NCBI RefSeq assembly: GCF_013340205.1
Contig: NZ_BJTG01000008.1
Coordinates: forward strand, 1-64,000
DNA from: Anaeromyxobacter diazotrophicus
GTDB taxonomy: Bacteria; Myxococcota; Myxococcia; Myxococcales; Anaeromyxobacteraceae
Length of the DNA stretch: 64,000 bases
Direction: 5' to 3'
Positions 54,209-55,283 of the stretch are shown one piece after another (the first letter of the stretch is position 1; every line of letters begins with the position of its first letter). A model generated the notes under the pieces. It worked only from the letters and a program-made list of their open reading frames with translations. It did not search any database and was not told where the DNA came from. Both the position numbers and the translations under genes were made by a program.

Positions 54209-54244
54209 GGCGGGAAGGTAGCACGAGGGACGACCGTGGCCGCT

Positions 54245-54511
54245 GGGGGCGGAGCGGGTGACCCCCGACCGCCCCTCGTCCGCGCGCGCGTCGGCGCCCA
54301 TGCTCCGCGCCGCACCGAGGCTCGCTCGGCCGGAACGCGCATCAGGGTCCCCGCGACGCGGCTGCGGAACCTTGCTCCGCGCCGCTGCGCGTCGCGGATC
54401 TTCGAGCAGTCCTCGCCGCGGAAGGGTTCCCTCGGGCGCGTTCCGGCGACCATGATGCCCGTGGCGGCGCTCCGCAATGGCGCCTCGTGCGCGCGCGGAC
54501 TCGGGGCGGCC
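54245..54511. repeat. Left arm of a large inverted repeat
   Basis: This arm matches the reverse complement of 54929-55198. The inner 78 bp (54434-54511) are identical in both arms; the outer part has diverged with small insertions. The outer match runs through words such as CGCGCGCGCGTCGGCGCCC and GCGACGCGGCTGCGGAA. No gene is seen in the arm. The sequences 54209-54244 and 54512-54545 between the arm and its neighbours hold nothing I recognise. Confidence 0.8.
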
Positions 54512-54545
54512 GCCGGTGCGACGCGAGGCCGCGGGGGCTAGGGCA

Positions 54546-54739
54546 TCACCGGCTCGAGAGGTCACGTTCGAGCGCGACCTTCCCGTCCAGGAGGAGTTCT
54601 TTCGGTCCGTCCGCGGGCGTGTAGACGCGCCTCTCTGCGGGTACCTCCTGCAGCGCGGCGAACACCTCGTGACGGCTTTCGCAGAACCGTTTCAGCGACT
54701 CGACGTCCCCATACTGCGAGAACACGAACGCCTGGTAAC
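54546..54739 (-). pseudogene. Orphan gene remnant inside the inverted-repeat element
   Basis: On the minus strand a stretch of about 64 codons reads like real protein: it has a GYQAFVFSQYGD start, then VESLKRFCESRHEVF, and a polar C-terminus ending in LERDLSSR before TGA. Codon use is less G/C-biased (AAA, GAA, TAT, CGT occur) than in neighbours, suggesting foreign origin. Upstream in frame there is no family-like sequence, so it is probably the 3' end of a truncated gene. A 59-residue version starting at GTG 54725 is possible, because GGAGG lies 14 nt upstream. I do not recognise the family. Sequence 54740-54928 holds nothing else. Confidence 0.45.
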
Positions 54740-54928
54740 CCTCCTTTCGTCTCCGCCGACCCGTAGCCGTAGCCGCCCGGCCAGCGACGGTCGTGGCTCG
54801 AAGATGATGGTGCCAACTCCCCAAGGGCCTCTGGCACACCGGGCGAGGCTGGAGCAGAAGGAGAGGGAGCACTCGCCTCGACGTGAAGCACATCCTGCGC
54901 GCGCTCGGACGACGCGTCCGCCCCGACT

Positions 54929-55198
54929 GGCCGCCCCGAGTCCGCGCGCGCACGAGGCGCCATTGCGGAGCGCCGCCACGGGCATCATGGTCGCCGGAAC
55001 GCGCCCACGGGGACCTCGACCGCGGCGAGGACTGACCGAAGCACCCCGGCGCGCAGCGCCGCGGTGCAAGATTCCGCAGCCGCGTCGCGAGGACCCCGGG
55101 CGCGTTCCGGCCATGGGAGCTTCCGGGCGGCGCGGAGCACGGGCGCCGACGCGCGCGCGGGCGAGGGGCGGCGGGGTTCAGCCGCGGTGCCCCCAGCG
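54929..55198. repeat. Right arm of a large inverted repeat
   Basis: Reverse complement of the left arm (54245-54511). Positions 54929-55006 are identical to 54511-54434. The arm spacing is about 417 bp. Together the pair could form a very long hairpin or mark the ends of a transposable element. No gene was found in 55007-55283 apart from a small C-rich palindrome. Confidence 0.8.
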
Positions 55199-55218
55199 TG
55201 AGGAGGCGTCGCCGTGAG

Positions 55219-55260
55219 CCCCTCTCCCATCCCCGCGATGCGGGGCGAGGGGAGATGGGG
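55219..55260. repeat. C-rich/G-rich palindromic repeat
   Basis: A hairpin with a perfect inner stem, CCCCGC-GAT-GCGGGG (55231-55245), and outer C-rich and G-rich tracts (CCCCTCTCCCAT...GAGGGGAGATGGGG). It resembles the insert in selA and could double as a terminator for the converging interval, though no U tract follows. Confidence 0.6.
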
Positions 55261-55283
55261 TCCCGCCGGGCTCCTCCTCGCCG

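Follow-up and report, generated by a model that had tools for sequence, protein, structure and literature searches.

Two facing copies of a dispersed, structured palindromic repeat at the truA site of Anaeromyxobacter diazotrophicus

What is the large inverted repeat that lies between an FG-GAP lipoprotein gene and truA in Anaeromyxobacter diazotrophicus, and how did it come to be there? Within the window (the whole stretch of 64,000 nucleotides that was analysed), positions 54,241–54,525 and 54,913–55,198 are reverse complements with 87% identity over 285/286 bp, including an exact 78-bp identity (54,434–54,511 versus 54,929–55,006) with 417 bp in between. From base composition alone, an inverted match this good would arise by chance in 64 kb with a probability of ~5e-31. 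A preliminary description had read the arms as the ends of one non-autonomous element, or the scar of an insertion, around a foreign-looking gene remnant. The inverted repeat is real, and the locus indeed lacks a transposase. The less GC-rich, coding-like interior was likewise borne out: its GC content is 0.68 versus 0.75 for the whole window, and a 66-codon stretch on the minus strand (54,549–54,746) shows codon-position bias (GC of 0.71/0.39/0.82; 0.79/0.51/0.98 for truA). The 66-codon stretch, a putative remnant, had no homologue in GTDB genomes, relatives, plasmids, Pfam, NCBIfam or PHROGs, and the sole identifiable gene piece between the arms is a ~50-bp end of a four-helix-bundle gene adjoining the second arm.

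The site itself differs between relatives. The gap between the FG-GAP lipoprotein gene and truA is 1,075 bp here versus ~90–120 bp in a genome of the same genus (G001) and in G008, the element is absent between the two genes in both, and covariance model R2 gave no match at truA in 13 other genomes of the family. Because the relatives have the short gap and no element, ~1 kb is, as judged from these genome comparisons, an insertion in the Anaeromyxobacter diazotrophicus lineage. Comparing the relatives at truA and looking for further copies of the arms were checks that the preliminary description had proposed, and both favoured its idea of a foreign-type, dispersed, non-autonomous element over a unique sequence at a conserved position.

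A repeat family with sharp ends

Compared with the whole genome (blastn), the locus gave 41 matches. Extraction and alignment of the copies delimited a sharply bounded unit of ~245 bp, GCCGCMCCGCGCCCGCGCGCGC ... GCGCGCGCGGGCGCGGGGCGGC. Compared with its reverse complement, the unit matches at ~70% and is thus an imperfect palindrome; full copies carry terminal inverted repeats (GCCGCMCCGCGCCC.../...GGGCGCGGGGCGGC). Present in the genome are 15 full-length copies, one with an internal deletion (C2_494) and two isolated end fragments (L022 and L023), both of which end in unrelated sequence; two stacked end fragments additionally precede copy C2_617. Almost every copy follows the 3' end of a gene, often where two genes converge, and both orientations relative to the neighbours occur. 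Most are solitary, and the full copies form two pairs. At C2:617,915–618,024 (L013) the first ~35 bp of the element, truncated, stand as two tandem copies ahead of a full one, an arrangement that suggests repeated insertion or 5'-end slippage.

Each arm of the inverted repeat is itself one such 245-bp palindrome. The first copy, W1 (54,267–54,510, minus strand), is of the subtype CTGCTCG...CAAGGTTCC and has its 5' end toward the second; W2 (54,930–55,174, plus strand) is of the subtype CTGACCG...CAAGATTCC and stands head-to-head with it. Both belong to the family by blastn and by covariance model R1 (233.6 and 221 bits, respectively, with both copies included in the model). A core motif GAGGACTG...TTCCGCAG, common to other phyla, lies at 54,362–54,414 (minus strand) in W1 and at 55,027–55,079 (plus strand) in W2. 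The spacer between the facing 5' ends (54,511–54,929) is single-copy and of lower GC. With most copies being solitary hairpins, the arms are units of their own and not the ends of one element, as had first been supposed. A local inverted duplication would account for two partly identical arms in one place; it is refuted because many other sites carry this unit, bounded in the same way, and beyond the identical stretch nine other copies resemble W2 more closely than W1 does. Overall, the repeat appears to represent an uncatalogued family of non-coding elements, small and spreading, and not one odd scar.

Downstream of W2 lies a separate hairpin, CCCCTCTCCC...GGGGAGATGGGG (55,215–55,262, plus strand), and similar sequence follows several other copies. 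A sub-threshold Rfam match to Antizyme_FSE at 55,215 falls outside the element and was taken as chance.

We consider it probable that W1 and W2 are two head-to-head insertions of a non-autonomous, structured, dispersed repeat, mobilised in trans and partly homogenised by conversion. The two copies show no difference in the 77 columns at their facing ends, whereas 28 of 166 columns (17%) differ beyond. Three alleles of the homogenised 5' segment, which occupies 54,434–54,511 (minus strand) in W1 and, identically, 54,929–55,006 (plus strand) in W2, are exclusive to these two copies. Because 77 identical columns adjoin a remainder that is 17% diverged, this pattern points to gene conversion confined to the inner segment, as the alignment of copies would lead one to expect, and it fits the conversion proposed in the preliminary description.

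Five head-to-head pairs were found, all divergent: the one in the window, C6:49,670–50,231 (C6_49), L087, L095 and L098. Pairs are commoner in betaproteobacteria than in the Anaeromyxobacter diazotrophicus genome. By eye, three betaproteobacterial pairs each combine two different subtypes, as W1 and W2 do, and the spacers of L095 and L097 look alike. These features, and the same divergent orientation in five of five pairs, would suit a pair that transposes as a whole, with inverted hairpins as its ends and the spacer as its cargo, comparable to REPINs as REP doublets. We regard this as unlikely, given that most copies here are solitary with the same sharp ends and that the spacer varies in length from 70 to 419 bp among the pairs of this genome.

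A conserved fold in distant phyla

RNAalifold and pair counting on the genome copies gave 71 pairs in 9 helices, with 95.7% of pair cells paired. Two-sided compensatory changes occur in 17 of the 71 pairs, a level reached in 0 of 500 shuffles; this control keeps shared ancestry, and sliding the partners by 1–3 columns destroys the pairing signal. The core reads GAGGACTG-NYCGAnG-(variable stem)-AAG(N)TTCCGCAG. In the multi-phylum set the invariance of GAGGACTG and TTCCGCAG follows by construction from the search pattern, whereas the stem between them was free to vary: across 25 distinct elements the apical stems are paired at 0.89 versus 0.59 when shuffled, with a maximum of 0.71 among 5,000 shuffles.

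The fold also appears to distinguish the strands. In other genomes, isolated mismatches with a match on either side were, as read on the motif strand, G.U in 31 cases versus A.C in 14 (p = 0.016, from copies that are not fully independent and from arms aligned with G.U and A.C scored equally); within the Anaeromyxobacter diazotrophicus genome the asymmetry is weak (14 versus 10). In 30 of 33, it is the motif strand that has the more stable fold. The G.U excess and the greater stability of this strand suggest that it is selected as a folded single strand, either RNA or single-stranded DNA.

Full-length homologues occur in two other Anaeromyxobacteraceae genera (G010, 102.7 and 97.9 bits; G003, 69.5 bits). 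A scan of 84,980 species genomes for the core pattern recovered it in Nitrospirota, Betaproteobacteria, Elusimicrobiota and Myxococcota, in an Arcobacter MAG (Campylobacterota), and in a Spirochaetota and a Coriobacteriales MAG, with up to five exact core matches per genome outside Anaeromyxobacter diazotrophicus; the reversed control pattern gave zero matches. Five pattern matches in coding-like sequence unlike the element (L080, L081, L104, L111 and L114) were discarded. The spread is patchy, with the core in 3 of 195 Myxococcota genomes (and the reversed control in none of them), and the core was missing from the phage, plasmid and IMG/VR records searched. No Rfam covariance model fits the element at permissive thresholds, using its own copies and those of betaproteobacteria, Nitrospira and Elusimicrobia. 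String and keyword searches of the open-access literature found no described family, and the core and downstream-hairpin sequences, when searched as strings, led to unrelated papers only.

Several further observations concern individual genomes. Elements adjoin sucC in two Nitrospirae MAGs (L094 and L101) and panC in two betaproteobacteria (L097 and L098); these placements seem orthologous, hence some copies would be old or long retained. A MAG labelled Klebsiella pneumoniae (CAMDRJ01; L087, L093, L102 and L113) carries the betaproteobacterial form of the element, and its label is probably wrong. A second conserved hairpin, GGGGTGCCYTTCTCTTTGGTTACTTTCTCTTGG...CAAGAGAAAGTAAC, lies downstream of the element (L095, L098, L087, L113, L079 and L088), both in betaproteobacteria and, as a variant, in Elusimicrobia. 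It was also detected at six places on the Ilyobacter megaplasmid NC_014633.1.

Covariation, conserved internal loops, the one-strand wobble asymmetry, the position of nearly all copies behind gene 3' ends and some apparently orthologous placements could also befit a functional structured RNA or 3'-end element (a processing signal, terminator or RNase III substrate) that is selected and duplicates without dedicated mobility. We think this quite improbable, for the element is patchy among Myxococcota, the site in the nearest relatives is empty, and copies lie in both orientations to their neighbours with no common neighbour gene. Structural-RNA character and mobility may nevertheless both apply, given a fold conserved across phyla.

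Four-helix-bundle genes and a possible mobiliser

The gene piece beside W2 (54,861–54,911, plus strand; blastn) is the 3' end of a four-helix-bundle (PF05635/TIGR02436) gene, and the same gene end also precedes C2_617, C8_125, C1_30 and C11_114. In blastn, the remnant has 83% identity over 52 bp to the flank of C11_114 and 96% over 23 bp to three four-helix-bundle genes; thus ~50 bp of one and the same gene end survive beside both W2 and C11_114. PF05635 is the protein family of 23S rRNA intervening sequences and resembles the accessory protein Avd of diversity-generating retroelements (DGRs; PMC10053308). It has four matches in the genome, one being a truncated gene below the cut-off, and the intact copy also matches TIGR02436. 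In three of the four cases a hairpin follows the gene immediately on the same strand (chance ~4e-10); the fourth, on C5, has no hairpin.

The adjacency, the retained gene ends and the resemblance to Avd raise the prospect that the hairpin forms the 3' portion of a 23S intervening-sequence or DGR Avd type of mobile element, with solitary hairpins as gene-less derivatives. We regard this as unlikely: the hairpin-bearing betaproteobacterial genomes tested had no PF05635 match, no PF05635 gene of Nitrospira or Elusimicrobia has a hairpin beside it, and the C5 gene stands without one. We rejected PF05635 as a universal partner; most copies and genomes lack the gene. The C8 and C5 four-helix-bundle genes (L161:1200–2170 and L159:1130–2040) have degenerate CGACCTC hexamer repeat arrays on both flanks, and a short hairpin lies ahead of them at the start codon, an arrangement that would suit independent cassettes.

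A RAYT (Y1 tyrosine) transposase would be a familiar agent for intergenic, non-autonomous, imperfect palindromes with inverted doublets, as in REP/REPIN elements. We disfavour this as very improbable, given that the genome, for all its 15 copies, yields no PF01797 match above the cut-off and that no hairpin found with model R2 adjoins Y1 genes in the other genomes searched. A target-site duplication, which the preliminary description had proposed to look for, was not found: the best direct repeats were 3.5 bp versus 3.8 bp with swapped flanks, with some automatic boundaries imprecise. Nor is any neighbour gene shared across genomes; there are only the apparent orthologous placements. Because there is no Y1 transposase over the cut-off, target duplication or conserved neighbour gene, the mode of copy origin, and copy movement itself, is something that we infer, from one genome of the species. 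Against the insertion reading we count the absent duplication, the failure to find a mobilising enzyme, the apparent orthologous placements and the weak wobble asymmetry in the home genome.

Under the preferred reading of two insertions mobilised in trans, the unit would be a single ~245-nt strand whose fold is a long, interrupted hairpin in which the internal loops are conserved. An enzyme acting in trans may recognise this folded strand, as RNA or single-stranded DNA, and mobilise it; the unit would prefer, or survive at, gene 3' ends, and facing copies could afterwards exchange sequence through gene conversion. Some units in this genome may travel with, or descend from, a cassette in which a four-helix-bundle (23S-IVS/Avd-like) gene is followed ~45 bp on by the hairpin. 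More tentatively, the family as a whole might represent a phylum-spanning class of miniature elements that move, and are selected, as the folded single strand with its conserved internal-loop core, spread by a trans-acting system, possibly with Avd-like four-helix-bundle proteins.

Comparison with known interspersed palindromes

As a rule, an interspersed palindrome in bacteria is known from a single genus or family. In the present case a structured core that Rfam does not contain recurs across distant phyla, each genome having several copies. If mobile, it would be a new non-autonomous element under selection for the folding of a single strand; if immobile, it would be a widespread unannotated structured RNA. 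The sharp copy ends and a searchable model make the question of mobility directly testable.

ERIC/IRU, YPAL and Correia/NEMIS sequences are imperfect palindromes of 100–250 bp that are intergenic, dispersed and without an encoded enzyme. The element is likewise an imperfect palindrome, intergenic, dispersed and enzyme-less; compared with the general features of the ERIC/IRU type, however, it is longer, multi-phylum, has conserved asymmetric internal loops and shows no detectable TA-type target duplication. It shares terminal inverted repeats with MITEs of DDE-transposase insertion sequences, but no target-site duplication like theirs was found. As in cassettes of the 23S rRNA intervening-sequence/PF05635 kind and with DGR Avd, the hairpin adjoins a gene or its remnant in three to five copies; unlike the 23S cassettes, it lies outside 23S rRNA, and most copies and most other genomes are without the gene. 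With REPINs (PMC3116915) it has in common that it is non-autonomous and that inverted doublets occur, whereas its unit is ~245 nt and not a short REP, no RAYT is present in the genome, and most copies are solitary. Thus, the element resembles ERIC-like and REPIN-like interspersed palindromes in kind and differs from them in its size, its internal-loop core and its spread over several phyla.
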